From positions 1-64,000 of the forward strand of contig NZ_CP026004.1 in the NCBI RefSeq assembly GCF_003086895.1: a DNA stretch of 64,000 nt, in the 5' to 3' direction. The translations under genes and the position numbers were made by a program. Source of the DNA: Stenotrophomonas sp. ESTM1D_MKCIP4_1 (GTDB taxonomy: Bacteria > Pseudomonadota > Gammaproteobacteria > Xanthomonadales > Xanthomonadaceae). How positions within the stretch are numbered: position 1 is the first letter of the stretch; the number at the start of each line of letters is the position of its first letter. Below, piece by piece: positions 38,746-60,065 of the stretch. The notes under the pieces are model-generated. The model saw only the letters and a list, made by a program, of their open reading frames with translations. It was not told the DNA's origin and made no database searches.

Positions 38746-38796
38746 GGTGGGCACTCCTTGGATGGCCCGGACAACCCGTGGCCTTCGCCCCATACC

Positions 38797-38953: not shown

Positions 38954-38970
38954 TGTCGCAGAATGCGACA
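38954..38970. promoter_or_regulatory. Upstream activator site candidate
   Basis: TGTCGCAGAATGCGACA is a perfect 7-bp inverted repeat with a 3-base centre, about 145 bases upstream of the -24/-12 element, the usual place for binding of a sigma-54 activator. It resembles the UAS of AcoR-type regulators. It would also let the activator control its own gene. Confidence 0.7.
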
Positions 38971-38983
38971 CAGGAGTGACAGG

Positions 38984-41091: not shown

Positions 41092-41730
41092 TCAGCCGGC
41101 CAGCACCGCCGCTTCGCGTGCCAGGCGTTCGATGCTGTCCCAGTCGCGCGACTGCATCAGGGCCGCGGTGGTCAGCCACGAACCGCCCACGCACAGCACG
41201 TTGGGCAGGTGCAGGAACTGCGGTGCGGTCTGCGCGCTGATGCCACCGGTCGGGCAGAAGCGCACATCGGCGAACGGGCCGTGCCAGGCCGACAGCAGCG
41301 GCGCGCCGCCGGACTGCACCGCCGGGAAGAACTTGAACGTGTCCAGACCGTGTTCCAGGCCGAGGATCAGCTCGGAGCCGGTCGCCACGCCGGGCAGGTA
41401 AGGCAGGTCGGCATCGCGCGCGGCGGCGTACAGCGTCGGCGTCGCACCCGGCGACACCGCGAAACGCGCACCGGCGGCCTTGGCGGCCTGCATCTGCGCC
41501 GGGGTCAGGACCGTGCCCGCACCCACCACCGCATCCGGCACGGCCTCGACCATGGCCTTGATCGCTTCCAGCGCACGCGGCGTACGCAGAGTGACTTCGA
41601 TCACCGGCAGGCCGCCGCGGAACAGCGCCTGGGCCACCTGCACGGCGTCGTCGACGTCATCGGGGGTGAACACCGGAATCACCGGTGCAAGTTTCAGTAC
41701 CGCACGTACGCGCGGATCAGCGCCGGACAT
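41092..41730 (-). CDS. eda: KDPG aldolase (2-keto-3-deoxy-6-phosphogluconate aldolase)
   Basis: Cleaves KDPG to pyruvate and glyceraldehyde 3-phosphate; last step of the Entner-Doudoroff and hexuronate pathways. 212 residues, normal length. The Schiff-base lysine is K133 in FKFFPAV; E45 and R49 lie in IEVTLRTP. Its start overlaps the end of the kinase gene by 14 bases, so kinase and aldolase are made from one transcript. The pairing with a KDG kinase, not with edd or zwf, points to use of uronic acids. Confidence 0.96.
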   Translation of the reverse strand: MSGADPRVRAVLKLAPVIPVFTPDDVDDAVQVAQALFRGGLPVIEVTLRTPRALEAIKAMVEAVPDAVVGAGTVLTPAQMQAAKAAGARFAVSPGATPTLYAAARDADLPYLPGVATGSELILGLEHGLDTFKFFPAVQSGGAPLLSAWHGPFADVRFCPTGGISAQTAPQFLHLPNVLCVGGSWLTTAALMQSRDWDSIERLAREAAVLAG

Positions 41731-42736
41731 CGAATCGCTCCTCGCCCACCAGGGCCAGTACGTCAGCTTCGCTGACAGGGTTGAAATCGCCGGGGATCGA
41801 GTGCTTCAGCCCCCCGGCGGCCAGGCCGAACCGCACGGTGGCGTCGGCATCGAAGCCGGACAGGATGCCATGCAGGATGCCCGCCGCGAATGCATCACCC
41901 CCGCCGATGCGGTCGACGATGCCCTGCAGCTGGCGCACCGGCGCCTGCGCACGGGTGCCGTCGCGGCCCAGCAGCAGCGCGCCCAGCGCATGGTGGTCCA
42001 CGCTGAGGGTCTGGCGCTGGGTGCAGGCCATCCACTGCAGCTGCGGGAACGCGGCGAATGCCGCTGCGGCCGCTGCCTCGACCTTGTCTACCACGTCGGT
42101 CTGCGCGAAGCGCTGGCCGAGGATGACTTCGATGTCGCGGTAGTCGGCGAAGACGATGTCGGCCTGGGCGAACAGTTCGCGCAGGATGGCCTGCGCATCG
42201 CCGCCCCAGCGCTGCCACAGCTTCGGCCGGAAGTTGCCATCGAAGGACACGCGCACGCCCAGTGCACGTGCCGCGCGCGCCGCCTCCAGCGTGGCCTGGG
42301 CGACGTCGGGGCCCAGTGCCGGGCTGACCCCGGACAGGTGCAGCCACTGTGCGCCCTGCAGCAGCACTGGCCAGTCGTAGTCGGCGGCGGTGCTGCGCGC
42401 GAACGCGGAATCGGCGCGGTCATAGACCACTTCGCTGGCGCGCTGCACCGCGCCGGTGGTCAGGAAATACAGGCCCATGCGGCCCTCGGGATCCTGCCGC
42501 ACGCTGCGCGTATCGACCCCGTGCCGGCGCAGTTCACCCAGCACGTGGGCACCCAGCGCGTTGCCGGCCACAGTGCTGACCATGGCCACCTCGTGTCCAA
42601 GGCAGGACAGCGAGACACCCACGTTCGCCTCCGCCCCGCCCACGTGCACCTGCAGCTGCGGCGACTGCATCAGCAGTTCGCGACCCGGTGCGCCCAGGCG
42701 CAGCAGCAATTCCCCGAAACATACGACACGACCCAT
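41717..42736 (-). CDS. kdgK: 2-keto-3-deoxygluconate kinase (PfkB family)
   Basis: Phosphorylates KDG to KDPG with ATP. 339 residues from the ATG at 42736, with GGGAGCGG upstream. The PfkB fold shows the N-terminal GGAEANVGVSLSCLG and the C-terminal nucleotide signature with catalytic Asp in RIGGGDAFAAGILHG. The PfkB family covers several sugar kinases; KDG is inferred from the overlap with eda and the pectin context. An operator-like repeat lies 76 bases upstream. Confidence 0.9.
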   Translation of the reverse strand: MGRVVCFGELLLRLGAPGRELLMQSPQLQVHVGGAEANVGVSLSCLGHEVAMVSTVAGNALGAHVLGELRRHGVDTRSVRQDPEGRMGLYFLTTGAVQRASEVVYDRADSAFARSTAADYDWPVLLQGAQWLHLSGVSPALGPDVAQATLEAARAARALGVRVSFDGNFRPKLWQRWGGDAQAILRELFAQADIVFADYRDIEVILGQRFAQTDVVDKVEAAAAAAFAAFPQLQWMACTQRQTLSVDHHALGALLLGRDGTRAQAPVRQLQGIVDRIGGGDAFAAGILHGILSGFDADATVRFGLAAGGLKHSIPGDFNPVSEADVLALVGEERFDVRR

Positions 42737-42811
42737 TTCCGCTCCCTTACGCTGGCCGCCAGCAGGTGCTGCTGGGCGGCGTGGAATCGCGCCACGCATC
42801 CGCGCGGCGGT

Positions 42812-42826
42812 TGACCATCGGTGTCA
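42812..42826. promoter_or_regulatory. Operator-like repeat upstream of kdgK-eda
   Basis: TGACCATCGGTGTCA (TGAC-N7-GTCA). It shares 14 of 15 bases with the site at 42959 and 13 of 15 with the one at 45901. Probably bound by a repressor of hexuronate or pectin use. Confidence 0.7.
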
Positions 42827-42909
42827 TATGAAAACCGACCGGCCTTGGACACAGCCTAGCAAACTGTCGGAAGCATTGTCCCGCAAGCGTCTTGGAGACA
42901 TTACAAGTC

Positions 42910-42973
42910 TGTTGCGGTGCAAGATGCCGCCGAGGGAGCGTGCTGCTACCGTCGGCTCTGACCAGCGGTGTCA
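42910..42973 (+). promoter_or_regulatory. Promoter/operator block of the first large receptor
   Basis: This 64-base block aligns without gaps to 45852-45915. Shared parts: GCAAGATGCCG in the left half, the -10-like TGCTAC (TGTTAC in the other copy) at 42944-42949, and the operator TGACCAGCGGTGTCA at 42959-42973. The operator would sit just downstream of the -10, a repressor-blocked position. Confidence 0.65.
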
Positions 42974-43021
42974 TTCCGCTGAAACACTCGCGAGACCAGA
43001 CCTTTGGGAGAGGGGAAAGGC

Positions 43022-45784
43022 ATGCATTCTCGGAACCACGCAAAAAAGACACCGGTTACCTTGCTCGCCATGGCGGTCAGCCTGGCCCTGTCGGCCGGCG
43101 CTGCGGCCCAGCAGCAGAGCGAGGCGCCCAGCGCCACCAACCTGGATACGGTGAATGTCACCGGCTACCGCGCCAGCGTGGAAAAGGCGCTGGACATCAA
43201 GCGCAGCGAATCCGGCGTGGTCGACGCCATCGTGGCCGAGGACATCGGCAAGTTCCCCGACCTGAACCTGGCCGAGTCGCTGCAGCGCATCCCGGGCGTG
43301 GTCATCACCCGTGAAGCCGGCGAAGGCCGCAACATTTCGGTGCGCGGCCTCGGCCCGGACTTCACCCGCGTGCGCATCAACGGCATGGAAGCGCTGACCA
43401 CGGTGGGCGCCGGTGACCAGAGCGGCGGCACCAACCGTGGCCGCGGCTTCGACTTCAATGTGTTTGCTTCGGATCTGTTCTCGCAGCTGATCGTGCGCAA
43501 GACCGCCTCGGCCGACGTGGAAGAAGGCTCGCTGGGCGCCACGGTCGACCTGCGTACCGCACGCCCGTTCGACTACGACGGCTTCACTTTCGCCGCCAGC
43601 GGCCAGGCCAGCTACAACGGCATGGCTGAAAAGGCGGACCCGCGCCTGTCCGCGCTGATCTCCAACACCTTCGCCGATGGCACGTTCGGTGCGCTGCTGT
43701 CGGTGGCCTATTCCGAGCGCCAGGCGCTGGAAGAAGGCTCCAACACTGGTCGTTGGGCCAACGGCCCGAGCAACGGCAATTTCTCCGCGTCCTCGCCGTT
43801 CACTGCCGCGCGTGCCGCCGATGTCTTCCACCCGCGCTTCCCGCGCTACGTGCAGATGGAACACGAACAGAAGCGCCTGGGCGTGACCGGTTCGCTGCAG
43901 TGGAAGCCCAGCGACGCCACCGAGATCTCGCTGGATGCGCTGTACTCGAAGATCGATGCCACCCGCGATGAGCAGTACATCGAGGCCATTTCCTTCAGCC
44001 GCGGCACCAGCACCACGCCGCGCCTGGTGGGCAAGCCGAACACCATCGTCAAGAACGGCGAGATCCGCGACAACGCGCTGCTGTATGGCGAGTTCGACAA
44101 CGTCGACATCCGTACCGAGAACCGCCACGACGAGTGGAGCACCGAGTTCAAGCAGCTCAGCCTGAACGGCCAGCACCGCTTCGGCGATGATTTCACCCTG
44201 TCCGGAAAGGTCGGTATCTCGCGCTCCAAGCACGAGAATCCGGTGCAGACCACCATCATCATGGACAAGTACGATGTTGATGGGTACAGCTACGACTACC
44301 GTGGCAACAGCCGCTTCCCGGTCATCAACTACGGCATCAACCCGACCGATCCCAGCGGCTGGGAACTGGCCGAAATCCGCCTGCGTCCGCAGTATGTGGA
44401 CAACGATTTCGACACGGGGCAGCTCGACTTCAACTGGAACATCAGCCCCGGCTTCCGCCTGAAGGGCGGCGTGCTGGCCAAGGACTACAGCTTCAAGACC
44501 ACCGAACTGCGCCGCGCCAGCGAACTCGCCGTGCCGAACTTCGCCGATGGAACGAAGGTCGTGCCGGTGGATCTGACAACCCAGGCCGGTCTGAAGGGCA
44601 TCCAGGGCAGCCCGTCCAACTGGGTGGTGCCGGATCTGGATGCGATTGCCGAGCAGTTCGACATCTACAGCAACAGCGGCACCTTCGCGGTCGCTCCGCG
44701 CGCCAACAACGTGCGCAGCGTGGAAGAGAAGGACCGCGGCGCCTGGTTGATGGGCGAGTTCTCCACCGACCTGGGCTCGCTGCCGCTGTCGGGCAACTTC
44801 GGTGTGCGTTACGTGCGCACCAAGCAGTCATCCACCGGCCTGTCGACGCTGTCCTCCGGCACGGCCCAGACCACGGTCAGCCGCACCTACGACGACACCC
44901 TGCCCTCGTTCAACCTGGTGGCTGAAGTCACCCCGGACTTCCTGATCCGCCTCGGCGCCGCCAAGGTGATGAGCCGTCCGGGCCTGGGCAGCCTGACCCC
45001 GGGCGCGACCGTGGCCGTGGCCGGTGGTGCACGCACCATCTCCAGCGGCAACCCGACCCTGGACCCGATCCGCGCCACCAACGTCGACCTCGGCTTCGAG
45101 TGGTACTTCGCCGAAGGCGCGATGGCCGGCATCGGCCTGTTCTACAAGGACATCGAGAGCTTCGTGCAGACCACCCGCGAAGTGCGCCCCTTCAGCGACA
45201 GCGGCCTGCCCGAATCGCTGCTGGCCGGTACCGGCGCCTCGGCCAGCGATGACTTCACCTACACCCGCCCGGTCAACACGCCCGGTGGCGAACTGCACGG
45301 CGTGGAAGCGAACTACACCCAGCCCTTCAGCTTCCTGCCCGGCAAGTGGTCGAACCTGGGCGTGCAGTTGAACTACACCTGGGTGGAATCGAAGATCCAG
45401 TACCTGAACTCCGCAGGCCAGCCGGTGATGAAGACCGACCTGACCGGGCTGTCCAAGTCGTCCTGGAACGCGACGCTGTTCTACGAAGGCGAAACCTTCG
45501 CCGCGCGCGTCTCGGCCACCAACCGCGACGACTACCTGACCCAGGCACCGGGCCAGGAAACCGGCTTCAACCTGGATGGCTACCACGGCATGACCGGCAC
45601 GACGGTCATCGATGCCTCCATCCGCTACACGATCAGCAAGCAGCTGGAGCTGAGCCTGGAAGGCATCAACCTGACCAACGAAGCGTCCGACGAGTGGGTG
45701 TACTCGCCGCTGACCGGTCGCCTGCCGCTGCAGTACACCGAAACCGGCCGCCAGTTCCTGCTGGGCGTGCGCTACAAGTTCTGA
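43022..45784 (+). CDS. TonB-dependent receptor, candidate pectin oligomer importer (1)
   Basis: 920 residues from the ATG at 43022, which has GGAGAGGGGAAAG upstream. Signal peptide to about residue 29 (GAAA-QQQ), plug domain with FPDLNLAESLQRIPGV and SVRGLGPDFTRVRINGMEAL, long barrel ending in Phe (GVRYKF). Paralogue of the next gene and of the receptor at 32198. Divergent from kdgK-eda and sharing its operator, it is inferred to import pectin-derived oligogalacturonides; the ligand is not proven. Confidence 0.9.
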   Translation: MHSRNHAKKTPVTLLAMAVSLALSAGAAAQQQSEAPSATNLDTVNVTGYRASVEKALDIKRSESGVVDAIVAEDIGKFPDLNLAESLQRIPGVVITREAGEGRNISVRGLGPDFTRVRINGMEALTTVGAGDQSGGTNRGRGFDFNVFASDLFSQLIVRKTASADVEEGSLGATVDLRTARPFDYDGFTFAASGQASYNGMAEKADPRLSALISNTFADGTFGALLSVAYSERQALEEGSNTGRWANGPSNGNFSASSPFTAARAADVFHPRFPRYVQMEHEQKRLGVTGSLQWKPSDATEISLDALYSKIDATRDEQYIEAISFSRGTSTTPRLVGKPNTIVKNGEIRDNALLYGEFDNVDIRTENRHDEWSTEFKQLSLNGQHRFGDDFTLSGKVGISRSKHENPVQTTIIMDKYDVDGYSYDYRGNSRFPVINYGINPTDPSGWELAEIRLRPQYVDNDFDTGQLDFNWNISPGFRLKGGVLAKDYSFKTTELRRASELAVPNFADGTKVVPVDLTTQAGLKGIQGSPSNWVVPDLDAIAEQFDIYSNSGTFAVAPRANNVRSVEEKDRGAWLMGEFSTDLGSLPLSGNFGVRYVRTKQSSTGLSTLSSGTAQTTVSRTYDDTLPSFNLVAEVTPDFLIRLGAAKVMSRPGLGSLTPGATVAVAGGARTISSGNPTLDPIRATNVDLGFEWYFAEGAMAGIGLFYKDIESFVQTTREVRPFSDSGLPESLLAGTGASASDDFTYTRPVNTPGGELHGVEANYTQPFSFLPGKWSNLGVQLNYTWVESKIQYLNSAGQPVMKTDLTGLSKSSWNATLFYEGETFAARVSATNRDDYLTQAPGQETGFNLDGYHGMTGTTVIDASIRYTISKQLELSLEGINLTNEASDEWVYSPLTGRLPLQYTETGRQFLLGVRYKF

Positions 45785-45851
45785 CCGTCACCGCGGCGGC
45801 GTGGCAGCACGCCGCCGCACCTCCAGTGCAACGAAGCCACGCCGCCGCAGC

Positions 45852-45915
45852 TGCTGCGGCGCAAGATGCCGCGCGCCATGCGCTTTGTTACGTTCACGCG
45901 TGACCCGCGGTGTCA
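45852..45915 (+). promoter_or_regulatory. Promoter/operator block of the second large receptor
   Basis: Second copy of the 64-base block, same spacing as at 42910. It contains GCAAGATGCCG, the -10-like TGTTAC (45886-45891) and the operator TGACCCGCGGTGTCA at 45901-45915. The start codon is 94 bases further on. Confidence 0.65.
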
Positions 45916-46009: not shown

Positions 46010-49000
46010 ATGGATTCGTCGCTCGCGCTTCACTGCGGCCGCGCGCCGCTCACCGTGCTCGCCCTGTCGATCGGACTGGTGCTGAGCCACGCTGCCCATG
46101 GGCAGCAGACCCCGGAAGCGGCTGCCGCCGGCTCCGATGCGGTCGACCTGGACAAGGTGGAGGTCAAGGCCACCTATCGCGAAAGCCTGCAGCAGTCGCT
46201 GGACGAAAAGCGCTACAGCGTCGAGCAGGTCGATGCGATCTACGCCGAGGACATCGGCAAGTTTCCCGATCTGAACCTGGCCGAGTCGATGCAGCGCATC
46301 GCCGGTGTCTCCATCGACCGCGAAGGCGGCGAAGGCCAGCAGATTTCCGTGCGCGGCCTCGGCTCGGATTTCACCCGCGTGCGCATCAACGGCCTGGAAG
46401 CCCTGTCCACGGCCGGCAGCGGTACCACCGGCGTCAACCGCAGCCGTGGCTTCGACTTCAACACCTTCGCCTCCGAACTGTTCAGCCGGGTCAAGGTCAA
46501 CAAGACCCAGTCGGCGCAGATGGATGAAGGTTCGCTCGGCGCCACGGTCGACCTGCGCGCGTCGCGGCCGTTCGATTTCGACGGCTTCCAGGCCTCGCTC
46601 AATGGCCAGTATGGCTACAACGAACTGTCGCGCTCGAAGGACCCGCGCGTCTCGGCGCTGCTGAGCAATACCTGGGCCGATGGCCGCTTCGGCGCGCTGA
46701 TGTCGGTGGCGTGGAGCAAGCGCACGATCTTCGAGGAAGGCTACAACCCGGTCCGTTGGGAACACGGCAACTACCGCAACTCCAACCAGGCCAACGCCGC
46801 CAACAACGGTACCTATGGTTTCTGCAGCCCGGCCGGCTATGACCCGCAGACGCCGCGCAACCCGGCTGCCAATGAAACCGCGCAGGGCGTGGGCAGCGCC
46901 GCCAACCAGGCGCGCAGCAACGGCTGGGGCAGCTACGGCATCGACGCGACCCATTGCGGTACCGGCATCGACCGCCCCGAAGCGACGGCCGAAAACATCG
47001 CCGCGTACGAAACCGCCACCAATGCGTGGATCCCCCGCTACCCGCGCTACGTCCGCACCGAGCATGAGATCGAACGACTGGGCGTCACCGGTGCGCTGCA
47101 GTTCCGCTTCAGCCCCGACAGCCTGCTCAACCTGGACCTGATGTACTCGAAGCTGGACAAGGACCAGCGCGAGGACTCCCTTGGCGCCAACCTGCACCGC
47201 ACCGCGCAGTACGGCGGCAAGACCCAGATCGTGGTGCGCGAAGCACAGGTCGACGCGCAGAACCGGCTGGTCTACGGCGTGTTCGACAACGTGGACTTCC
47301 GCACCGAATCGACCGCCATCGAAGAAAGCACCGAGTTCAAGCAGGTCAGCCTGAACTTCGAGCACCGCTTCAACGATGCGGTGCGCCTGGATGCGCTGGT
47401 AGGCCATTCGGCGTCCAGCTTCGAGCGGCCGGTGTTCTCGATGGTCAGCTTCGACAACAGCAATCTGGATGGCTTCGTGCTGGACATGCGCAACGGCGCC
47501 AGCATGCCGTCGATGACCTTCCCCTTCGCGCTGGGGGATGCGGCTTCCTGGCAATGGCTGGGCTACGGCACCGCACCTGTGAATGCCAACGGCACTGCCC
47601 GTGGCGGCAACATCAGCGAAGTGCGTCTGAACCCGCAGTACGTCGACAACCAGTTCGACACCGCCAAGGTCGACCTGACCTTCAACCTCTCGCCCACCTT
47701 CACCCTGCGCGGCGGCCTGGCCTACAAGGACTACGGCATGCGCACGCAGGAGTACCGCAACATCAGCTACGGCCGCATGTCGCAGGCGCTGCCCGACGGC
47801 GTCGGCGTGGGTGATCTGTCCACCACCCTCGATGGCTTCGGCAAGGGGCTGGACGGCAGCACGCCAGGCAGCTGGCTGATCCCCGATTTCAACCGCATTG
47901 CCGAACTGCTGGACATCTACTGCAACTGCAACACCGGCACGCTGGGCGGTGACTACCGCCTGGCCGGGGTCGGCCACTTCGGTGCATCGAACAACAACTT
48001 CGATGTGACCGAAAAGAGCTACGCCAGCTATCTGCAGCTGGATTTCAACACCGAACTGTGGGATCGCCCGTTCCGCGGCAACCTCGGCCTGCGCTACGTG
48101 CGCACCGAGATCGACGCCAGCGGCTATGCGCCGTGCCAGGCCGCCAACAGCAGCGATCTTTCGGCGGCCTGCGAACCGTTCCTGGGCGTGGCCAGCGCCA
48201 CCGCCGATGCCGGCGAACGCCTGCTGGTGGCCACCACCGTCGGCCATCGCTACGACGACTGGCTGCCGTCGCTGAACCTGGCCTGGGACCTCACCGACAG
48301 CGTGGTGCTGCGCTTCGGCGCGGCCAAGACCATGGCCCGCCCGACCCTGTCCAACCTGTCGCCCAGCGTCAGTGGCGGCCCGACCAGCTTCCTTGACGAG
48401 GACCGCTACTACTCGATCAACCTGGGCAACCCGAAGCTGGATCCGTTCCGTTCCACCAACTACGACCTGAGCGCGGAGTGGTACTTCCAGGAAGGTGCGC
48501 TGTTGTCGGCGGCGGTGTTCTACAAGGACATCGAAACCTACGTGCAGCGTACCCGCCTGCTGACCACCTGGGGCGACATGGGCTATTCGCTGGACCTGCT
48601 GCCGGCCGGCTTCAGCCCCAACACGCTGTTCAACGTGCAGAGCTACTTCAACACGCCCGGTGGCCCGTTGAAGGGCTATGAGCTGACCTACCAGCAGCCC
48701 TTCAGCTTCCTGCCCGGGTTCTGGAAGAACTTCGGCATCCAGCTGAACTACACCCACGTCGACTCGAAGATCAAATACCTCTTCAGCTCCGGCAGTGGCG
48801 ACACCATCGTCACCACCTACACCGAGAACGACCTGCTGAACCTGTCGCCGAACTCGTACAACGCCACCCTGTACTACGACGACGGCCGCTTCAGCGCACG
48901 CGTGTCGACCAGCTACCGCGATGCCTACATCAACCAGATCCTGACCCAGGAAAGCGTCTGGGACCTGGACGGCAACCAGTACGCCACCGCCGACGTGACC

Positions 49001-49192
49001 GGAAAGTACAGCGTGGAAAACGTGGATTTCAACATGTCCTGGAAGTTCAACAAGCAGCTGACCGTCAGCTTCGAGGCGATCAACCTGCTGGACAGCGCCG
49101 ACGAACGCTACGTCGATTCCGCGCTGTCCCTGCCCGACCGCTATACCCACACCGGTCGCCAGTACTACCTGGGGCTGCGCTACAAGTTCTGA
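46010..49192 (+). CDS. TonB-dependent receptor, candidate pectin oligomer importer (2)
   Basis: 1060 residues; signal peptide to about residue 29 (AHG-QQT). Plug: FPDLNLAESMQRIAGVSIDRE and SVRGLGSDFTRVRINGLEAL, very close to the preceding receptor. The barrel is about 140 residues longer, with an inserted loop rich in Asn/Ala (about 250-340). It ends in Phe (GLRYKF). Tandem receptors of this kind in xanthomonads serve plant polysaccharide uptake. The unknown 1272-residue exported protein follows 75 bases later and is probably cotranscribed. Confidence 0.9.
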   Translation: MDSSLALHCGRAPLTVLALSIGLVLSHAAHGQQTPEAAAAGSDAVDLDKVEVKATYRESLQQSLDEKRYSVEQVDAIYAEDIGKFPDLNLAESMQRIAGVSIDREGGEGQQISVRGLGSDFTRVRINGLEALSTAGSGTTGVNRSRGFDFNTFASELFSRVKVNKTQSAQMDEGSLGATVDLRASRPFDFDGFQASLNGQYGYNELSRSKDPRVSALLSNTWADGRFGALMSVAWSKRTIFEEGYNPVRWEHGNYRNSNQANAANNGTYGFCSPAGYDPQTPRNPAANETAQGVGSAANQARSNGWGSYGIDATHCGTGIDRPEATAENIAAYETATNAWIPRYPRYVRTEHEIERLGVTGALQFRFSPDSLLNLDLMYSKLDKDQREDSLGANLHRTAQYGGKTQIVVREAQVDAQNRLVYGVFDNVDFRTESTAIEESTEFKQVSLNFEHRFNDAVRLDALVGHSASSFERPVFSMVSFDNSNLDGFVLDMRNGASMPSMTFPFALGDAASWQWLGYGTAPVNANGTARGGNISEVRLNPQYVDNQFDTAKVDLTFNLSPTFTLRGGLAYKDYGMRTQEYRNISYGRMSQALPDGVGVGDLSTTLDGFGKGLDGSTPGSWLIPDFNRIAELLDIYCNCNTGTLGGDYRLAGVGHFGASNNNFDVTEKSYASYLQLDFNTELWDRPFRGNLGLRYVRTEIDASGYAPCQAANSSDLSAACEPFLGVASATADAGERLLVATTVGHRYDDWLPSLNLAWDLTDSVVLRFGAAKTMARPTLSNLSPSVSGGPTSFLDEDRYYSINLGNPKLDPFRSTNYDLSAEWYFQEGALLSAAVFYKDIETYVQRTRLLTTWGDMGYSLDLLPAGFSPNTLFNVQSYFNTPGGPLKGYELTYQQPFSFLPGFWKNFGIQLNYTHVDSKIKYLFSSGSGDTIVTTYTENDLLNLSPNSYNATLYYDDGRFSARVSTSYRDAYINQILTQESVWDLDGNQYATADVTGKYSVENVDFNMSWKFNKQLTVSFEAINLLDSADERYVDSALSLPDRYTHTGRQYYLGLRYKF

Positions 49193-49267: not shown

Positions 49268-52200
49268 ATGCAACGTACCGCTTCTGTCCTGCCCCGCCCG
49301 CGTCGCCGCCTGCTGGTGGCCGCGCTGTCGATGGCCGCCGCGCTGCCCGCGCTGGCTGCACCCTCGCCGACGCTGCTGTTCCACGTTGACGCCAACCAGG
49401 GACTGACCGCCATCACGGCGCAGGGCGAAGCGGTGCCGAACTTCCGCGACAAGGCGGCGGTGGTTGATGACGGTGCACGCGGCAAGGCCATCCAGTGGGA
49501 AGACGATGGTGTGCTGGCCTGGGATGCACCGGGCAACATCCTGGCCCAGCGCGGCACCCTGGCCTTCGACTGGCGGCCGCGCTATGCGGTGGGCGAAGCG
49601 CCGTTCGTGATCTTCCGCGTCGGCTATGCCGACCACAGCAGCTGGGACATGGCGTGGCTGCGCATCGACTGGAACGGCCACGGTTTCGATGCCTTCGTCA
49701 CCGATGCCAACCTGGCACGTACCCGTGTGTCGTTCCGCATGGACACGCCGCCGCGGCCGGACCAGTGGCTGCACCTGGCCTTTGCCTGGGACGAGGACCA
49801 GGGCGTGCGCCTGTCCGTCGATGGCCGCGAAGTGGCGCGCGCGCAGGCCACCGGTGATTACGATGCGGCGCTGGACCAGCTCGGCCTGGCCGGGCGGGTG
49901 ATGGCGCCCTACCAGGTGCAGAGCCGCTACAACTTCCTGCGCGGCAGCGATTTCCAGCACATCCGCGTGTACGACCGCATGCTGGATGGGCCTGCGGTAC
50001 AGGCACTGGCAGGCGGCAGGGCTCCGGCCAGTGCAGTGGCCCCGGCCACCGACGAGCGCGCCTGGCGTCATCGTTTCGGCTGGGAAGGCGCGGCACCGCC
50101 GGCCCTGGCATCGGCTGGCACGCGCATCCGCAAGATCGAGTTCGCCGACACCCGCGACCTGAAGGCGTGGATGTGGAAGGCCACCGATGGTATCGCCGAA
50201 ACCACCTGGCCCGGCGTCTACAACCGCTCGCGCCTGCCCGGACGCAACGATTACTTCCAGCTGCCCGACTGGAACACCTATGTGGAAAGCGGCCAGCACC
50301 TGGACCTGAGCCTGCCGGCCGGCGAGACGGTGAACCGCATGGAGATCCGTGGTGCGGCCTTCGGCACCCTGGCGCACGGGCCCGATGCCGCGCACGCCAC
50401 CCAGGTGCTGGCCACCCGCCCGCGCGGGGTGGTACGCAGCGTGCAGGACATTCCAGCGCAGCAGGGCGGCGTGCTGCGTTTCAGCAATGTCGAACAGGAA
50501 ACGCCGATCCAGGAGATCTGGGCCTACAACGTGAGCGAAGGCGCCGAGCCGGAGGGCACGGTGAAGCAGACCTACGTGATCGACAGCCAGGCGCTGCCCG
50601 ACTACACCAACCTCGATGCACTGCGGCAGTACATAGAGGGCCGCTTCCCGGCCGCCGAGCGCAGCACGGTGATGGCCCTGCCCAAGGGCGCAGGCTCGCG
50701 CCGCCGTGGCGCCGACAGCCTGCCCGCGCAGCCGCGGCCGATCGTGCACGTGCTGATTCCTTCAGGCGTGGGCGACGCACCGGCCAACCAGCCGTTGATC
50801 CGCAGCTGGGCCTACAGCTGGGAGAACATGCATGACGGCCTGGATGGTGTGGCCATCGACCTTCCCGCGCTGGACCTGCCGGCCACGCACGATGGCCTGA
50901 TCCCGCTGAACATCCGCATCAAGGATCCTATCTGGCCGGCACGCGACATGATCGATGTCTCGGTGTCGGTGCAGCCGGGGCAGAAGCGCACGCTGTGGCT
51001 GGATCTGCGCGACCGCATCCTTACCCCGGACAGCCTGTGGCTGAGCATCGCCTCGGCCGCGCCGGGCTTCGACGCCGCCGCGCTGGACGGCGCGCAGATC
51101 CGCCTGGTGTTCAAGCCACGCGCCGACGCGCTGAAGGAACACGTCGCCGACCGCTTCAACCAGGTGCGCGACAACTGGGGTTTCCTGGTGGAAGAGCACA
51201 CCACCTCCAAGCGCCAGCGCCTGTATGCGCGCGTGTATGCCGACCTCAGCGACCTGCTGCGGGTGGACCCGGACCACGAGCTGGGCCGCCTGTACTGGAA
51301 CTACATCAGCTACAACAGCCAGGGCCGCCCGCCCTATACCGCACCTGCCGTGCCCAAGGGCGTGCCGGCGTGGGCGTTCAACCAGGTGCAGGACCTGGCC
51401 CAGGTGCGGCAGTTCGTCGACTGGTGGATCGACGAGCGCCAGGTGGCCTATGGCGATTTCGGTGGCGGCATCTCCGATGATTCCGACCTGACCCAGCAGT
51501 GGCCGGGCCTGGCGCTGATGGGTGTGCAGCCGGATCGGCTGAAGGCTTCGCTGACCGCCTTGTCCGATGCGGTGTACCGCAATGGCATGTTCAGCAACGG
51601 CCTGAGCACCATCGAGACCGACGAGCTGCATTCCTACGAGGAAGGCATCAACACCAACAGCGCCATGCTCTACCTCAACTGGGGCGACCCGCTGACGCTG
51701 GAGCGCCTGATGGAAACGGTGAAGGCCTTCGACGAGCGCATCATCCTGCGCAACCCGCAGGGCAACCTGCTGTTTTCCAGCAACTGGTTCGGCGGCAACA
51801 AGGTCTACCGCGAGCCGAACTGGCAGTGGCAGAAGCCTTACTCCTTCCCGGTGCTGCACCCGGCGTTCCTGCTGGGCCAGTACAACGCCGATCCGACCGG
51901 CCGCAAGCTGGTGATCGGCCTGGCCGACGGCTACCTGGCCCATGCGGGCACCGATGAGAAGGGCCGCTTCACTCTGCCCAACGAAATCAACTGGGCCACC
52001 GGCGCCACCCGCGGCGGCGAGTTGAACAACGGTTCGGGCAGCGGCGACATCATGCATACGTTCTGGGCCGCGTGGCGCTGGACCGGCGATGCGAAGTACC
52101 TGCAGGCGCTGGACTATCGTGTGGCGCGTGGCGGGCCAGGCGCGCTGGCCAACCTGGGCGAGAACTATGTCGAAGTGCTTGGCAGGCAGCAGGACTGGTA

Positions 52201-53086
52201 CCCGACCCTGACCGCCGAGGCCGATGCCGGAAAGACCGGCTTCGCCAGCCTGATGGCCTGGCAGGCCAGCGGCGATACGAAGTACATCGATGCGCTGCAC
52301 GCCGATGGCCGGCAGGCCAAGGTGCAGCGCGCCTACATGAACACCGAAGGCCACTGGTGGTCCGACCGCGTGGAAGCGCCCAGCGAGTTCCTGCAGCGTG
52401 CCCGCCTGGGCGGCATCGCGCTGAAGCGCAACCAGAGCTGGCCCGGTCATACCGTCAGCTGGCGTTTCGACCGCGATGGCGCCGCCGAACAGGTGGCCCT
52501 GCTGGTGCACGCGCCCTCGCGCGAACGCTTCACCGTCACCAGCTACAACCTGGGTGCCCGCGCGATCGGTGCCGACATGACCGGCTGGAATGTGGCCAGC
52601 GGCACCTGGCGCGTGCGCAGCGGCGTGGATGCCGATGGTGATGGCCGGATCGACGGCACACCGGCCGAACGCACCGTGCAGCTGGAAACCAGCGTGTCGG
52701 TGCCGATGCAGTTCCGCCCGGGGCGTACCGAGGTGTTCGAGTTCGAGCGCATCGCGGCCGGTAGCCCGGTGGAGACCCGTGCGGACCTGGGCATCGGCCG
52801 CGGCGATGTGCGTGTGGACGGGCGCCAGGTGCATGTGACCGTGCACAGCCTGGGCCACGCCGGCAGTGGCGTGGGCGTGGCCGTGCTGGAAGACGCGCGT
52901 GGCCGCGAGCTTGCCCGCACCGAAGTGCCGGCCATGGCCGCACCGAGCGATCTGCAGCCGAAGACGGTGGGGGTGTCGCTGCCACTGCCGGCCGGTGACC
53001 GCAGCGGACTGCGCGTGCGCGTGGCGCTGGCCGACGGCGGTGAGGAAGTGACCCGGTTGAACAACGTGGCCGACGTGCCGCGTTGA
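49268..53086 (+). CDS. Very large exported protein with LamG-like N-terminus, family unknown
   Basis: 1272 residues. Signal peptide (cleavage near Ala31). Residues 35-245 read as a LamG/concanavalin-like jelly roll (AKGKAIQWEDDG-type start, WLHLAFAWDEDQGVRLSVDG). About 270-480 may be a carbohydrate-binding beta domain. About 600-1060 is helical and rich in Trp/Tyr with acidic clusters, such as GDFGGGISDDSD (about 730-741) and ETDELHSYEEG (about 783), as in alpha/alpha-toroid lyases and glycosidases. About 1165-1272 looks like a CARDB-type beta domain. Context suggests a pectin or rhamnogalacturonan enzyme; no catalytic family is recognised. Confidence 0.85.
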   Translation: MQRTASVLPRPRRRLLVAALSMAAALPALAAPSPTLLFHVDANQGLTAITAQGEAVPNFRDKAAVVDDGARGKAIQWEDDGVLAWDAPGNILAQRGTLAFDWRPRYAVGEAPFVIFRVGYADHSSWDMAWLRIDWNGHGFDAFVTDANLARTRVSFRMDTPPRPDQWLHLAFAWDEDQGVRLSVDGREVARAQATGDYDAALDQLGLAGRVMAPYQVQSRYNFLRGSDFQHIRVYDRMLDGPAVQALAGGRAPASAVAPATDERAWRHRFGWEGAAPPALASAGTRIRKIEFADTRDLKAWMWKATDGIAETTWPGVYNRSRLPGRNDYFQLPDWNTYVESGQHLDLSLPAGETVNRMEIRGAAFGTLAHGPDAAHATQVLATRPRGVVRSVQDIPAQQGGVLRFSNVEQETPIQEIWAYNVSEGAEPEGTVKQTYVIDSQALPDYTNLDALRQYIEGRFPAAERSTVMALPKGAGSRRRGADSLPAQPRPIVHVLIPSGVGDAPANQPLIRSWAYSWENMHDGLDGVAIDLPALDLPATHDGLIPLNIRIKDPIWPARDMIDVSVSVQPGQKRTLWLDLRDRILTPDSLWLSIASAAPGFDAAALDGAQIRLVFKPRADALKEHVADRFNQVRDNWGFLVEEHTTSKRQRLYARVYADLSDLLRVDPDHELGRLYWNYISYNSQGRPPYTAPAVPKGVPAWAFNQVQDLAQVRQFVDWWIDERQVAYGDFGGGISDDSDLTQQWPGLALMGVQPDRLKASLTALSDAVYRNGMFSNGLSTIETDELHSYEEGINTNSAMLYLNWGDPLTLERLMETVKAFDERIILRNPQGNLLFSSNWFGGNKVYREPNWQWQKPYSFPVLHPAFLLGQYNADPTGRKLVIGLADGYLAHAGTDEKGRFTLPNEINWATGATRGGELNNGSGSGDIMHTFWAAWRWTGDAKYLQALDYRVARGGPGALANLGENYVEVLGRQQDWYPTLTAEADAGKTGFASLMAWQASGDTKYIDALHADGRQAKVQRAYMNTEGHWWSDRVEAPSEFLQRARLGGIALKRNQSWPGHTVSWRFDRDGAAEQVALLVHAPSRERFTVTSYNLGARAIGADMTGWNVASGTWRVRSGVDADGDGRIDGTPAERTVQLETSVSVPMQFRPGRTEVFEFERIAAGSPVETRADLGIGRGDVRVDGRQVHVTVHSLGHAGSGVGVAVLEDARGRELARTEVPAMAAPSDLQPKTVGVSLPLPAGDRSGLRVRVALADGGEEVTRLNNVADVPR

Positions 53087-54832: not shown

Positions 54833-56458
54833 TCAGGCGGTACCTCGTTGCAGGAAGGGAACGCGCTGGTAGAGCTCACGCTCACCGCCGCGCGGGTCGT
54901 CGGCGGCGCGGCTGCGCACGTCGAACAGCATCGTGCGGCGCTGCGGCAGGGTGTATGGCGCCCACTCCGCCAGCCCGCCGTGGTTGGGATCGCCGTGGCG
55001 GGCGAAGGCGATCAACGCATCGCTCATGACGGCCGCCACGGCGCGTGCCGCCTCGCCGCCCCCGGTGCGCGCCGTGGGCAGGCCGGCGTTGTCGAACACC
55101 AGCGGAATATCCAGGGTATGGAAGGCGCGCAGGCGCCCATCGTCCACCGGCGAAGGCCAGTCGAGCTGGTAGGCCCAGGTGGGTGCTGCCGTGGCGGGCT
55201 GCCGCGCGCGCGCTTCCAGCTCTTCCACTGCACCGCGCCAGGATCGCCCGGCCGTGGTGGCCGCGAAAAATACCTCCGATGGCGTGTAGTGCGGATACAG
55301 CCGACGGTAGTGCTCGATCACCACCGACGGCAGCAGGTCAACGAACTGCTGTTTTTCCAGTTGTGCCGGCAGGGTGGTCCAGTCCAGCGCGAAGTTGGCG
55401 GGGTCGTTGCCGAGGAACGCCCGGGTTTCATCGTGGGTGTTGCCGATCACCATCGGGATGGCTGCTGACTGTGCAGGGGCCTGTGGCCAGAACGGATGTA
55501 CCGGCAGTACGACTTCGTCCAGCACCGGCCCGAAGTACAGCGCGGTGTCCTCCACCCGCGAGGGATCGCGGGCGCGGGTGGCCGCCAGCAGGTCGGCCAT
55601 GGGCAGGCGCAGCAGCGTGGCCAGGTCCGGTGCACGAACGGCGTCCATCGCCACCGCCGCACGCTGTGCCGCCGCGCGCGGGCCGGCGGCGGTGACCTGC
55701 TGACCGCTCATCGTCCATGCGCGCTGGAACAGGCCGCGTGCCGCCGGCATCGCCATCAGCGTGGCGATCTTGGCGCCGCCGCCGGACTGGCCGAACACGG
55801 TGATGTTGCCGGGATCGCCGCCGAACGTTGCGGCATGTTCGCGCACCCATTGCAGCGCCTGCACCAGGTCCAGCTGGCCGACATTGCCGGACATCGCATA
55901 GCGCGGGTCACCCAGCGCGCCCAGGTACAGATAGCCGAAGGTGTTCAAACGGTGGTTGAGGGTGACCACCACCACATCGCCGCGCCGGCACAGCGCGCCG
56001 CCGTCGTAGAGCGGATCGCTGCCGGAGCCGTTGTTGAAGCCGCCGCCGTGGATGTAGACCAGCACCGGCCGGCGCGCACGCGCATCCAGTGCCGGCGTCC
56101 ATACGTTGAGGAACAGGCAGTCCTCGCTGCCGGGCCCCTCCGCCCCGCCCTGCGGTGCGGCGGCGCCATGGTCCAGCGCGTCGGCGATCCCGTGCCAAGG
56201 GGCCTCGCGCCGCGGTGGCTGGAAACGGTAGCCGGCTGTATCCGCGCCATAGCGCAGTCCACGGAACACCAGCACGCCCTGTTCGCGCTGGCCGCGCACG
56301 CGACCACCGCGGACCCGCGCCAGCACCTGGGTGTCATCGCGCGGCCCGGGGGCCGCCAGCGCCGAGGGCAGAGCCGCCACGGTGGCCGTGGCCAGTGCCC
56401 AGCGCGCGCTGTCGCGCAGGAAGCGGCGGCGCTGCAGATCGTCCGGCGCAGCGTTCAT
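54833..56458 (-). CDS. Carboxylesterase type B, exported
   Basis: 541 residues of the carboxylesterase/cholinesterase family. The N-terminus has a Tat-like RRRFLRD followed by a hydrophobic stretch and APA-type cleavage region. Catalytic Ser in FGQSGGG; the oxyanion hole is in HGGGF; the Glu/Asp and His are further on (FGNDPANF region and ARHGDPNH). The start codon overlaps the stop of the upstream esterase as ATGA. Probably removes acetyl, methyl or feruloyl esters from pectin; the substrate is inferred from context. Confidence 0.9.
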   Translation of the reverse strand: MNAAPDDLQRRRFLRDSARWALATATVAALPSALAAPGPRDDTQVLARVRGGRVRGQREQGVLVFRGLRYGADTAGYRFQPPRREAPWHGIADALDHGAAAPQGGAEGPGSEDCLFLNVWTPALDARARRPVLVYIHGGGFNNGSGSDPLYDGGALCRRGDVVVVTLNHRLNTFGYLYLGALGDPRYAMSGNVGQLDLVQALQWVREHAATFGGDPGNITVFGQSGGGAKIATLMAMPAARGLFQRAWTMSGQQVTAAGPRAAAQRAAVAMDAVRAPDLATLLRLPMADLLAATRARDPSRVEDTALYFGPVLDEVVLPVHPFWPQAPAQSAAIPMVIGNTHDETRAFLGNDPANFALDWTTLPAQLEKQQFVDLLPSVVIEHYRRLYPHYTPSEVFFAATTAGRSWRGAVEELEARARQPATAAPTWAYQLDWPSPVDDGRLRAFHTLDIPLVFDNAGLPTARTGGGEAARAVAAVMSDALIAFARHGDPNHGGLAEWAPYTLPQRRTMLFDVRSRAADDPRGGERELYQRVPFLQRGTA

Positions 56459-57495
56459 CGGCTACCCTGGGGTCGGATCCCCTCTCCACCGGAGAGGGGC
56501 TCTGACCCCATCTCCGCCCCCTTCTCCTTAGCCGCCAGCCACGCCTCCGCCAGCAGCGGCCACAGCGCCAGCGTAGAACCCGCCGGCACGCGCATGCCGA
56601 AGCCATGCCCGCCGTGGGCGAACAGATGCAGTTCGTGCTCGACCCCGGCGTCGGCCAGGGCCGCTGCCATCCGTTCGCTGTTGTGCACGCTCACCACGCG
56701 GTCATCGTTGGCGTGCACCAGCAGCGTCGGCGGCATGTCCGCGCGTACCTGCTGCTGCATCGAATACTGTGCTGCCAGCGCCGGGTCCGGATGGTCGCCG
56801 AGCAGCCGCCCGCGTGAGCCGCTGTGCGCATGCGCGCCCATGTCGATGACCGGATAGACCAGCACCGCGCGCGCCGGGCGTGCACTCAGGCGGTCGATGC
56901 TGTCGCGCGCCGGGTACACCTGCGCATCGAAGCCGGTGGCCAACCGCGCGGCCACATGGCCGCCCGCGGAAAAGCCCATCACCGATACGCTGTCGGCATC
57001 CAGGCCGCGCCGTGCAGCCTGGTCGCGCACGACCCGCAGCGCGCGCTGGGCATCGGCCAGCGCCGCCTGGCGGTCGCGGCCGGGCTGCGGCAGGCGGTAG
57101 CGCAGCACGAACAGGGTGTAGCCGGCACGGTCCACCCATTCCGGCAACAGTGCACTGTCTTCCTTGTCGATCACCACGCGCTGGTAGCCACCACCGGGAA
57201 TCACCAGCAGGGCGCGCCCGTTCGGCTGCGCCGGTACATGCACCAGCAGATAGGGCGCATCGATCTGGTCGACATAGCGGTCAGGGTGGGCCGGGTCACG
57301 GCTGCGCTCGACCACCCGTGCCGGCCGTGCCGGGCCCTGCTCGCCGGGGACCTGGCCGGCGGGCCACAGGGCGATCTGCTCGCCGGCCAACTCCTGCCCG
57401 GGGCGTTCGTTGTCGCGCAGCGGCGCGGCGGGGGAGATCAGCGGCAGGGCCAGCAACAGCCCGGACAACAACAGCACGACAGGACGCAGACGCAT
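56455..57495 (-). CDS. Exported alpha/beta hydrolase (acetyl esterase-like)
   Basis: 346 residues from the ATG at 57495, with signal peptide (to about 24). Oxyanion motif IPGGGYQ, nucleophile in GFSAGGH, acid in HANDDRVV and His in HGGHGFGM, as in BD-FAE/acetylxylan-type esterases. First gene of the minus-strand esterase operon. Its last ~18 residues (from MGSEPL) are encoded by a palindromic repeat that has entered the 3' end of the gene, so the native protein probably ended earlier. Confidence 0.9.
   Translation of the reverse strand: MRLRPVVLLLSGLLLALPLISPAAPLRDNERPGQELAGEQIALWPAGQVPGEQGPARPARVVERSRDPAHPDRYVDQIDAPYLLVHVPAQPNGRALLVIPGGGYQRVVIDKEDSALLPEWVDRAGYTLFVLRYRLPQPGRDRQAALADAQRALRVVRDQAARRGLDADSVSVMGFSAGGHVAARLATGFDAQVYPARDSIDRLSARPARAVLVYPVIDMGAHAHSGSRGRLLGDHPDPALAAQYSMQQQVRADMPPTLLVHANDDRVVSVHNSERMAAALADAGVEHELHLFAHGGHGFGMRVPAGSTLALWPLLAEAWLAAKEKGAEMGSEPLSGGEGIRPQGSR
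56469..56509. repeat. Palindromic repeat, GGGGTC...GACCCC family, inside a coding end
   Basis: GGGGTCGGATCCCCTCTCC and the inverted copy ending GGGGCTCTGACCCC. It lies wholly within the last codons of the alpha/beta hydrolase gene, 11 bases before the carboxylesterase start. Confidence 0.8.
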
Positions 57496-57577: not shown

Positions 57578-57593
57578 TGACACCGGTTTACCA
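57578..57593. promoter_or_regulatory. Candidate operator between the divergent esterase and TRAP operons
   Basis: TGACACCGGTTTACCA. Its TGACACCG is the exact reverse complement of the CGGTGTCA half of the three sites at 42812, 42959 and 45901; the other half differs. It lies in the 156-base divergent promoter region. Confidence 0.45.
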
Positions 57594-57651
57594 TATACAC
57601 CTCCTGCAGACGCTGTCGATGGGCAGTGCAACAAACACAGGGAGACCGTTC

Positions 57652-58479
57652 TTGAGCAACGAACACGGCACACATGGGCAGACGCCGCCGCCGGACGATG
57701 CGGCCGCGATCGCCCAGGCCTTCACCACCGCCCGCCGCGCCGGGCAGTCACTGGCCGCATTCCCGGGCGACATCCCGGACACCCTGGTCGCCGCCTACCA
57801 GGTGCAGGACCTGGCGATCGCTGCCTGGGATGACCAGGTGGTCGGCTGGAAGGTGGGGTACATCGCCGCCGAGCGCCGTGACGTGTCCGCGGATGACCGC
57901 CTGCTGGGCCCGGTTTTTTCCCGTCAGCTGAAAAATGCTACCGGTGGAACAACCGACATTCCGGTGTTCGTCGGCGGCTTTGCCGCGGTCGAAGCGGAGT
58001 ACGTGCTGGAGCTGTTGGAGGACGCTCCCGCCGGACAACTGCACTGGTCGCCGGAACAGGCCGAGGCCCTGCCCGCACGCCTGTACATCGGCGTGGAAGT
58101 GGCCAGCAGCCCGCTGGCCACCATCAACGAACTCGGTCCACGCGTGGTGGTGTCCGACTTCGGCAACAACAACGGCCTGGTGCTGGGGCCGGAGATCGTC
58201 GACTGGACCGCACGCGATGAAACCTCGCTGCGCGCCGAGACGCTGATCGAAGGCGAAGTGGTCGGCACCGGCGGCGCCACCCGCCTGCCCGGCGGCCTGC
58301 GCGCTGCGTACGCCTTCGCGCTGTCCCGTTCGGCCCTGCGTGGCCGGCCGTTGCGCAAGGGCGACCTGATCGCGACCGGCAACGCCACCGGTATCCATGA
58401 CATCACCGCCGGGCAGACCGCGCTGGTGCGTTTCGCCGGCTTCGGCGACATTGCCTGCCGGGCCGTGCCAGCGGGATGA
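57652..58479 (+). CDS. 2-keto-4-pentenoate hydratase-like enzyme
   Basis: 275 residues of the MhpD/fumarylacetoacetase-related family, which hydrate or decarboxylate 2-oxo acids with Mg2+ or Mn2+. The TTG at 57652 is chosen as it follows GGGAG at 8 bases; the ATG at 57619 has no such site. Motifs: metal-ligand Glu pair in AAVEAEYVLEL, and VGWKVGY near residue 65. In aromatic pathways it is next to other meta-cleavage genes, which are absent here. It is first in an operon with a TRAP transporter and pectinases, so its substrate may be a sugar-derived keto acid. Confidence 0.85.
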   Translation: MSNEHGTHGQTPPPDDAAAIAQAFTTARRAGQSLAAFPGDIPDTLVAAYQVQDLAIAAWDDQVVGWKVGYIAAERRDVSADDRLLGPVFSRQLKNATGGTTDIPVFVGGFAAVEAEYVLELLEDAPAGQLHWSPEQAEALPARLYIGVEVASSPLATINELGPRVVVSDFGNNNGLVLGPEIVDWTARDETSLRAETLIEGEVVGTGGATRLPGGLRAAYAFALSRSALRGRPLRKGDLIATGNATGIHDITAGQTALVRFAGFGDIACRAVPAG

Positions 58480-59521: not shown

Positions 59522-59531
59522 GGACCCTGCC

Positions 59532-60062
59532 ATGACCGAGACGACGACGCCCGCCGCCGGGCCTGGACAGCGCCTGCTGGACCGCATTGCCGACATCGCC
59601 ATCTACTGTGCCGTCGCCGCCCTGCTGGGGCTGGTGGTGGTGCAGGGCTGGCAGGTGTTCGCCCGCTATGTCATCAACGATTCGCCCAGCTGGACCGAGC
59701 CGGTCACCCTGCTGCTGCTGGCCACGGCGATGAGCCTGGGTGCGGCCTGCGGCGTGCACACCAACCGACACTTCGGCTTCTTCCTGCTGCATGCGTACAT
59801 GAGGGCCGGCCTGCGCCGCGCCGTGGACGTCCTCATCCAGCTGGTCGTGGCCGTGCTGGGCGGTTTCATCGCCTTCTGGTCGGCCGACCTGCTGCTGGAC
59901 GGGCTGGACATCAAGGCTGCCGGTGCGCTGCTGCCGCAGAGCATCAACTACCTGCCGCTGGCTGTGGGCGGTGCGCTGATGGTGCTGTTCGCATTGAACC
60001 GTGCGTGGAAAGCGCTGCAGGCCAGCGACGCTGGCAGCGAAGACGCTGAAGGAGATCGTTGA
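59532..60062 (+). CDS. dctQ: TRAP transporter small permease
   Basis: 176 residues with four membrane helices and the DctQ pattern QVFARYVINDSPSWTEPV. It couples the binding protein to the large permease. It starts 10 bases after dctP and ends 3 bases before dctM. Confidence 0.95.
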   Translation: MTETTTPAAGPGQRLLDRIADIAIYCAVAALLGLVVVQGWQVFARYVINDSPSWTEPVTLLLLATAMSLGAACGVHTNRHFGFFLLHAYMRAGLRRAVDVLIQLVVAVLGGFIAFWSADLLLDGLDIKAAGALLPQSINYLPLAVGGALMVLFALNRAWKALQASDAGSEDAEGDR

Positions 60063-60065
60063 CCC

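Follow-up and report, generated by a model that had tools for sequence, protein, structure and literature searches.

Five putative operators and a LacI-family regulator in the pectin utilization region of Stenotrophomonas sp. ESTM1D_MKCIP4_1

The first 64 kb of the single-contig, 4,475,880-bp genome of Stenotrophomonas sp. ESTM1D_MKCIP4_1 (the window; contig numbering is used throughout) carry three closely matching 15-bp sites, designated operators A, B, and C, in front of genes for the breakdown of 2-keto-3-deoxygluconate (KDG) and for two TonB-dependent receptors. Together with two further sites, D and E, they are very likely to be recognized by a single repressor of the LacI family with a KdgR-like function, which, as judged from sequence comparison, would control a pectin regulon from a gene at 64160-65218.

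Operator sites and genes of the locus

Operators A (TGACCATCGGTGTCA, 42812..42826), B (TGACCAGCGGTGTCA, 42959..42973), and C (TGACCCGCGGTGTCA, 45901..45915) all read on the plus strand, and their mutual differences are confined to positions 6 and 7. A preliminary description of this DNA had placed each of them before a different unit, with only two variable central positions, and both observations were confirmed along with the coordinates. Operator A lies 75 bp from the ATG of kdgK (42736), B 48 bp from the ATG of receptor 1 (43022), and C 94 bp from the ATG of receptor 2 (46010). The kdgK gene (KDG kinase, PfkB family; 41717..42736, minus strand) was assigned by a PfkB domain match, and its best NCBIfam rows were KDG/KDGal kinases or a fusion containing one, every row falling below its cut-off. 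Since it overlaps eda (KDPG/KHG aldolase, profile matches; 41092..41730, minus strand) by 14 bp, the two genes probably form one unit. Receptor 1 (43022..45784) and receptor 2 (46010..49192), both on the plus strand, matched the TonB-dependent receptor profile TIGR01782. They had been called giant, which overstates the size of these 920- and 1060-aa members of the TonB-Xanth-Caul subfamily.

In the whole genome, the full pattern TGRCYNNCGGTGTCA matched three times on the forward strand, at A, B, and C, and never on the reverse strand, with no match on either strand for the reversed-pattern control. The full pattern is strong evidence. Taken alone, the frame TGAC-N7-GTCA says little, with four matches in the window versus 1.01 expected, a number reached in 2 of 100 shuffles. 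The fourth of these matches, at 11415, has nothing else in common with A-C and was rejected as chance. A two-mismatch search of the genome with TGACNNNCGGTGTCA gave 237 forward and 206 reverse matches versus 194 and 217 in the controls, showing no excess. The proposal that a genome scan with the exact motif would mark further pectin genes failed, as the scan returned A-C and nothing further.

Two more sites came from a scan of contig positions 1-74999 for the half-site CCGGTGTCA, which gave two exact matches on the minus strand, at 57578 and 65306. Operator D (TGGTAAACCGGTGTCA, 57578..57593, minus strand) separates a PaeX-like pectin acetylesterase gene (paeX; 56455..57495, minus strand, below the NCBIfam cut-off), the first gene to its left, from a plus-strand run of FAH-like, TRAP transporter, pectate lyase, GH43, and lacI genes. 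Operator E (TGGTAACCGGTGTCA, 65306-65319, minus strand) lies outside the window, before kduI. A genome search with GGTAN{1,2}CCGGTGTCA found D and E alone (control matches, 1).

The plus-strand run begins, as the first gene to the right of D, with an FAH/2-keto-4-pentenoate-hydratase-like gene (57619..58479, weak family call), followed by the TRAP transporter genes DctP, DctQ, and DctM (58520..61349, profile matches), a pectate lyase gene (61349..62500; TIGR02474, PF09492), and a GH43 gene (profile match) that occupies 62532..64000 of the window and ends at contig 64121. The locus also carries esterases besides the PaeX-like one. The regulator gene, lacI (64160-65218, plus strand), comes after the GH43 gene, and kduI (NF002091, 65392-66240) and kduD (TIGR01832, 66321-67076), both on the plus strand and outside the window, are next. 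A profile search of the genome returned seven LacI-domain matches, of which one, at 64220-64357, belongs to this 352-aa LacI-family protein. Its gene starts 160 bp beyond the window end, in line with the earlier remark that the regulator is not encoded in the window. The protein combines an N-terminal LacI helix-turn-helix (HTH; PF00356, 66.8 bits, cut-off 27) with a periplasmic-binding-protein-like domain (PF13377, 120.6 bits, cut-off 26.5). The HTH_IclR profile scored 13.2 bits versus a cut-off of 22, so the protein does not belong to the IclR family. With sites at both kdgK-eda and kduI-kduD, its putative regulon includes KDG kinase, the aldolase, and the KDG-forming steps, as in the LacI-type KdgR regulators of hexuronate and KDG metabolism.

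A TonB receptor, degrading enzymes, an inner-membrane transporter, and a regulator thus lie all together, as in a carbohydrate utilization (CUT) locus. The route encoded by kduI, kduD, kdgK, and eda leads from 4-deoxy-5-keto-uronate through KDG and KDPG to pyruvate and glyceraldehyde 3-phosphate, and its substrate is supplied by the pectate lyase. A gene for a 1272-aa LamG protein (49268..53086, plus strand) starts 75 bp 3' of receptor 2, probably in the same unit, and its product is a candidate pectin-acting enzyme. A sequence search of solved structures found no relative of this protein and returned a single chance-level row. Fold comparison of its modeled residues 462-852 pointed to the neighborhood of (alpha/alpha) toroids, and because the top rows were tied, no family is claimed. 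Adjoining eda, the stretch 36103-40870 encodes an alcohol dehydrogenase, an aldehyde dehydrogenase, and a sigma-54 activator. No A-E-type operator was found upstream of these three genes in relatives (0/4, 0/2, and 0/2 loci), and they probably form a separate unit.

Conservation of the sites and co-occurrence with the regulator

Relatives of receptor 1 were found in 80 loci, of which 24 (Xanthomonadaceae-type plus one gammaproteobacterial metagenome-assembled genome, MAG) were used for upstream counts. The counts were made by locus for the 8-mer CGGTGTCA within 300 bp, for which the chance expectation is 0.044 per 300 bp; the frameshifted L076 was counted once, and L032 was excluded because only 104 bp of upstream sequence were available, with the site present there. 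The 8-mer preceded receptor 1 in 23 of 23 loci and kdgK in 23 of 23 (one common intergenic region), FAH in 10/10 and paeX in 5/5 (a region common to both), kduI in 2/2, and receptor 2 in 10 of 12, nine of these being proper sites and that of L033 not. It was mostly absent before inner genes, with counts of 0/10 for DctP, 0/8 for DctQ, 0/6 for DctM, 0/9 for COE, 0/5 for eda, 0/3 for lacI, 0/2 for kduD, 1/18 for the LamG gene, 1/4 for GH43, 1/5 for CDO, and 1/2 for GDSL. The record containing L032 is titled Bacillus subtilis strain SK7B5; its Stenotrophomonas-type locus, with a receptor 81% identical, indicates a mislabelled or contaminated assembly.

In a genus sample of 61 genomes, the LacI protein was present at 87-100% identity in 43 and as a 72-74% version in 15, and an ortholog was absent in three, one of which (G012) has just a 42% paralog. 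The A/B pair occurred in 42 of the 43 genomes with the 87-100% form, in 0/15 with the 72-74% form, and in 0/3 lacking the ortholog. D/E-type sites (GGTAAACC or GGTAACC) accompanied the pair in 41 of these 42 genomes, the exception (G016) being a draft of about 830 contigs, and were found in 0/19 of the others. The one genome with a 93% LacI and no strict A/B pair (G055) carries sites that depart from the pattern at one or two positions, upstream of another TonB receptor, and its GGTAGCCGGTGTCA match is a true D site. Among 198 genomes of the family, 81 have the LacI protein at E <= 1e-95 and 73 have the operator TGRCYANCGGTGTCAT; all 73 have LacI, and the operator was found in 0/117 genomes without it. 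The overlaps in genus and family were counted by hand from the listings.

Eight family genomes have LacI and no strict operator. G087, G099, and G160 have CGGTGTCA sites with other left halves upstream of FAH and kduI, to which G087 and G160 add one upstream of receptor 1. The LacI of G006, G040, and G233 is of the 72-74% type. The last two, G088 and G217, have lacI beside kdgK and no CGGTGTCA within the 19 kb taken, which must be counted against a LacI-operator relationship. The same holds for several other observations. LacI persists without the A/B pair in the 15 genus genomes with the 72-74% form, and three Xanthomonas loci (L033, L040, L085) lack a separate site for receptor 2, whose transcription may there start at the promoter of receptor 1. 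Moreover, the co-occurrence is confounded by the gain and loss of lacI, operators, and pectin genes as one locus, and because regulator, targets, and sites travel together in this way, co-occurrence alone is no proof.

Single pattern matches are not evidence either, because TGRCYNNCGGTGTCA, which matches in 48 of the 61 genus genomes, gave isolated matches only in six (G005, G007, G028, G035, G045, G060) and its reversed control gave one or two matches in nine. Of the GGTAGCCGGTGTCA matches in locus-free genomes, the one instance inspected (L163, G032) lies, by eye, inside a flavodoxin/reductase-type coding sequence and was attributed to chance there.

The locus with the 72-74% LacI, which was inspected in G005 and G037 only, has the gene beside eda (L181, 15438-16493; L182, 14380-15420), with a nearly identical DNA-binding domain in L181. 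The 20 kb taken of each locus contain no kdgK, neither of the receptors, no TRAP transporter, no kduI/kduD, and no operator, leaving an orphan regulator. Separately, a second LacI copy, 53-55% identical, was found in two genomes (G148:C18:214560-215703 and G194:C1:1652644-1653787), preceded at about 100 bp by a TGACTACCGGTGTCAT site, and is possibly a duplicated regulator under the same operator.

Operator placement, spacing, and shape

Promoter elements were compared by eye among relatives, as a description without statistics in which some of the 25 loci represent the same genome twice. In 18 of these 25 loci, TAGAAT abuts A on the kdgK strand (TCATAT in the window's own genome), so that A would cover the kdgK start. 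Operator B starts 6 bp after an extended -10-like TGC-TACCGT (42944-42952) and C 6 bp after TGT-TACGTT (45886-45894), both with the geometry TGN-TANNNT. D is flanked in relatives by a TTGNCA-like box and TATACA, and E overlaps ATGACA-17-TAGAAT. Each site would, with this placement, block its promoter. A sigma-70 consensus scan of 42700-43060 returned no boxes.

A second shared element lies upstream of B (TGCGGTGCAAGATG, 42913..42926, plus strand) and of C (TGCGGCGCAAGATG, 45855..45868, plus strand), in both cases 46 bp from the operator start. Exactly three copies of its pattern TGCGGYGCAARATG exist genome-wide, one each at B, C, and E, the third at contig 65294-65307, and the element may serve as an activator site or as an atypical -35 region. 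In the 24 loci, 20 of 27 plus-strand copies of GCAARATG were located no more than 80 bp upstream of an operator, and no factor could be named for this motif.

The spacing of A and B bears on whether the repressor would form a loop. Spacings were hand-copied for pairs in the same orientation less than 250 bp apart, excluding opposite-facing pairs and pairs of 442 and 445 bp; the L062 pair includes a two-mismatch site, some genomes have two pairs, and not every family pair was confirmed to lie between kdgK and receptor 1. The spacing was 146-147 bp in 40 of 42 genus genomes and 136 and 157 bp in the remaining two, and same-facing pairs elsewhere in the family covered 112-187 bp, or 102-187 bp with the larger sample. 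For 14 genus-level spacings, a scan of 8-14 bp gave a best period of 10.50 bp (R 0.72, p ~6e-4 against +/-5 bp jitter), and the best period was 10.5-10.6 bp overall. R was 0.81 for eight spacing clusters and likewise for one spacing per genus (p 4e-4). In 395 family genomes, of which 204 have the operator, two new spacings, 102 and 128 bp, appeared among the matches listed.

Looping of the A/B pair is, on these spacings, about evenly balanced. The possibility that the regulator is correctly identified and A and B act separately, the spacing pattern being a product of ancestry and chance, falls just short of an even chance. A and B each lie on a separate core promoter, the species are related, and the two out-of-sample spacings are neutral, lying 0.21 and 0.27 turn off and bringing the pooled values to R 0.64 and p 0.0018. 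The protein itself also speaks against a lac-type loop. Its alignment with E. coli LacI covers LacI residues 2-320 only and leaves 13 residues, and the 352-aa protein appears to have no room for the lac-type C-terminal tetramer helix, which we take to lie beyond the region of LacI residue 320; thus, any loop would be GalR-like. On the other side, the free 8-14 bp scan peaks at 10.5 bp, the genus-wise spacings give the R of 0.81 stated above, and some relatives have receptor-1 pairs 31-34 bp apart, approximately three turns.

It is unlikely that two regulators share the regulon, with LacI acting only on the TGGTAA(A)CCGGTGTCA sites (D and E) and another factor on the TGACCANCGGTGTCA sites (A-C). 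The sites do form two classes, because D and E have the same right half, CCGGTGTCA, as A-C and a different left half; three different left halves (A-C, D, and E) thus occur, which weighs against one repressor, and in the window's genome each class is restricted to its own promoters. However, the 8-mer CGGTGTCA is common to both classes, 41 of the 42 genus genomes with the A/B pair carry D/E-type sites as well, and the palindrome found in some alphaproteobacterial relatives consists of two copies of the shared half. In addition, the kduI-lacI interval, which in the window's genome shows the TGGTAACC form, contains the A-C class in G103 and G135 (TGACCACCGGTGTCA) and in G191 (TGACTACCGGTGTCA). 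Since the same promoter bears either class in different species, one regulator is favored.

It is very unlikely that all sites are bound by a GntR-family protein, or by another regulator outside the LacI family, with its gene elsewhere in the genome. The preliminary description had postulated one regulator, probably of LacI or GntR type, for pectin genes, of which the single LacI-type regulator of a pectin regulon was retained and the GntR option rejected. The genome has 12 GntR-domain matches, eight of them above cut-off, and the outer TGAC/GTCA symmetry is odd-numbered. However, all 12 lie at 571 kb or beyond, no GntR gene was found near contig 40-70 kb, LacI tracks the operator over the 198 genomes, and some orthologous loci have even palindromes with the CG center typical of LacI operators.

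The latter came from an inspection of 21 non-Xanthomonadaceae loci, chosen from the 80, over the 450 bp that precede receptor 1. A related half-site occurred in 16 of the 21, and a perfect 16-bp even palindrome with a CG center, ATGACACCGGTGTCAT, in three Phenylobacterium MAG loci (L049, L053, L089). Pairs of sites 31-32 bp apart precede receptor 1 in L049, L050, L051, and L089, and a lacI homolog is the immediate neighbor of receptor 1 in L051 and L087 and lies farther off in the vicinity in L050 and L075. The recognition helix SKKTVSR is shared with these lacI homologs, and paralogs in the window's genome have SLKTVSR, SIKTVSR, SVATVSR, and SQPTVSR (four recovered; two of the seven LacI-domain proteins were not recovered by the pattern). 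The site of L046, TGACCACCGGTGTCA, equals ATGACACCGGTGTCAT plus one C in the left half, and Xanthomonadaceae sites retain the right half with the left half displaced by one base. Because some Phenylobacterium orthologs of receptor 1 carry the palindrome, the 15-bp site is best read as an extended LacI operator, with one extra base in the left half, and not as a GntR site; the direction of this change is inferred. The TGAC-N7-GTCA symmetry would then probably be a by-product of the extra base in an even palindrome and not ancestral. Some of the same data weigh against the LacI-repressor explanation. Only 3 of the 21 loci show the perfect palindrome, five (L052, L057, L066, L077, L078) have no related site in the 450 bp, and the conserved G of A-D is one base farther from the center than expected from the LacI code, as given in the available part of its description (PMC2978694).

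Chance similarity of A-C has a negligible probability and is already refuted by conservation, since the weakness of the bare frame and the lack of excess at two mismatches stand against a full pattern unique in the genome, a site before receptor 1 in every locus counted, and a 16-base pattern present in the 204 of 395 family genomes with control matches in two; the three-site observation is sound.

Proposed circuit and comparison with known systems

From the genes and site positions we infer the following circuit for the LacI-family repressor. In the absence of pectin, the repressor would keep kdgK-eda, both TonB receptors, and kduI-kduD off by occupying their core promoters, and it would in the same way shut the divergent paeX and TRAP-pectate lyase-GH43-lacI units. 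A and B, 14 helical turns apart, may be looped, so that the divergent promoters would be shut jointly. A pectin breakdown product, most likely KDG or the keto-uronate one step earlier, would accumulate, bind the periplasmic-binding-protein-like domain, and release the repressor, whereupon uptake, depolymerization, and the DKI-KDG-KDPG route would be switched on jointly. As the last gene of its own operon, lacI would itself be controlled by operator D.

A more tentative proposal, which we consider possible and rate below an even chance, concerns the history of the operator. An orthologous LacI with an unchanged recognition helix may have exchanged an even 14-16 bp palindrome, seen in Caulobacterales, for an asymmetric operator with a fixed length of 15 bp in Xanthomonadaceae. 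There it would clamp the divergent promoters of kdgK and the receptor in a whole-turn loop, whose length (102 to 187 bp) lineages would have altered in steps of roughly one turn. If true, these stepwise loop changes would be a natural version of the gal phasing experiment.

For pectin use in Stenotrophomonas, Xanthomonas, and their relatives, the analysis names a regulator, an operator, and a regulon that can be tested. The many species compared also allow one to ask how well a repressor copes when operator symmetry changes by a single base and whether paired operators move apart in steps of whole turns. The retention of the repressor after target loss in the inspected loci raises the question of the present role of an orphan pectin repressor.

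Enterobacterial KdgR is a KDG-responsive regulator of the IclR family. The system described here resembles it in placing pectin genes under a KDG-type signal and differs in using a LacI-family protein. In the literature search, no paper contained TGACACCGGTGTCA, and titles and the beginnings of abstracts described no such LacI pectin regulon in Xanthomonas, Stenotrophomonas, or Caulobacter; RegPrecise was not covered.

Local sugar regulators of the LacI family, as presented in the available part of a regulon survey (PMC4052901), share with the present protein the LacI HTH and sugar-binding domain and probably the CG-centered operator. They also share the site position (mostly 30-140 bp upstream), the tandem arrangement at helical spacings with peaks at 22 and 32 bp, and the control of hexuronate pathways, the survey naming ExuR, KdgR, UxaR, and UxuR for glucuronate and galacturonate. 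They differ in that A-C are 15 bp long with one half displaced and that the A-B type pair is 102-187 bp apart. Since the survey found even palindromes in 1251 of 1303 regulators and non-canonical odd palindromes in 4%, the displaced-half form is unusual but has precedent.

The CUT locus XCC0120-XCC0122 of X. campestris, according to the available part of its description (PMC1790865), comprises a TonB receptor, a pectinesterase, and a pectate lyase, and its receptor gene is polygalacturonate-induced. The gene order is the same as in the X. arboricola locus L033, where receptor 2 is followed by a pectinesterase (PF01095) and a pectate-lyase-like gene (39% identical to that of the window), and XCC0120 may, from gene order only, be orthologous to receptor 2. 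No operator or regulator is named for the X. campestris locus in that part of the description, so that a polygalacturonate-induced receptor had no named regulator there, and receptor 2 of the three Xanthomonas loci differs in having no site of its own.

The E. coli gal repressosome is formed by GalR, which loops as dimers, together with HU at a natural spacing of 113 bp, with repression at 103, 113, 123, and 133 bp and at distances of as many as 19 turns (available part of PMC4693257). It shares with the A/B pair a LacI/GalR-family repressor, two operators roughly an integral number of turns apart, and the same spacing range. By contrast, the present pair spans the divergent promoters of two units, and the loop is suggested by spacing only. 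LacI-type negative control, the most likely mechanism, is known from other systems, and the displaced-half 15-bp operator and the possibly looped divergent promoter pair would be new.

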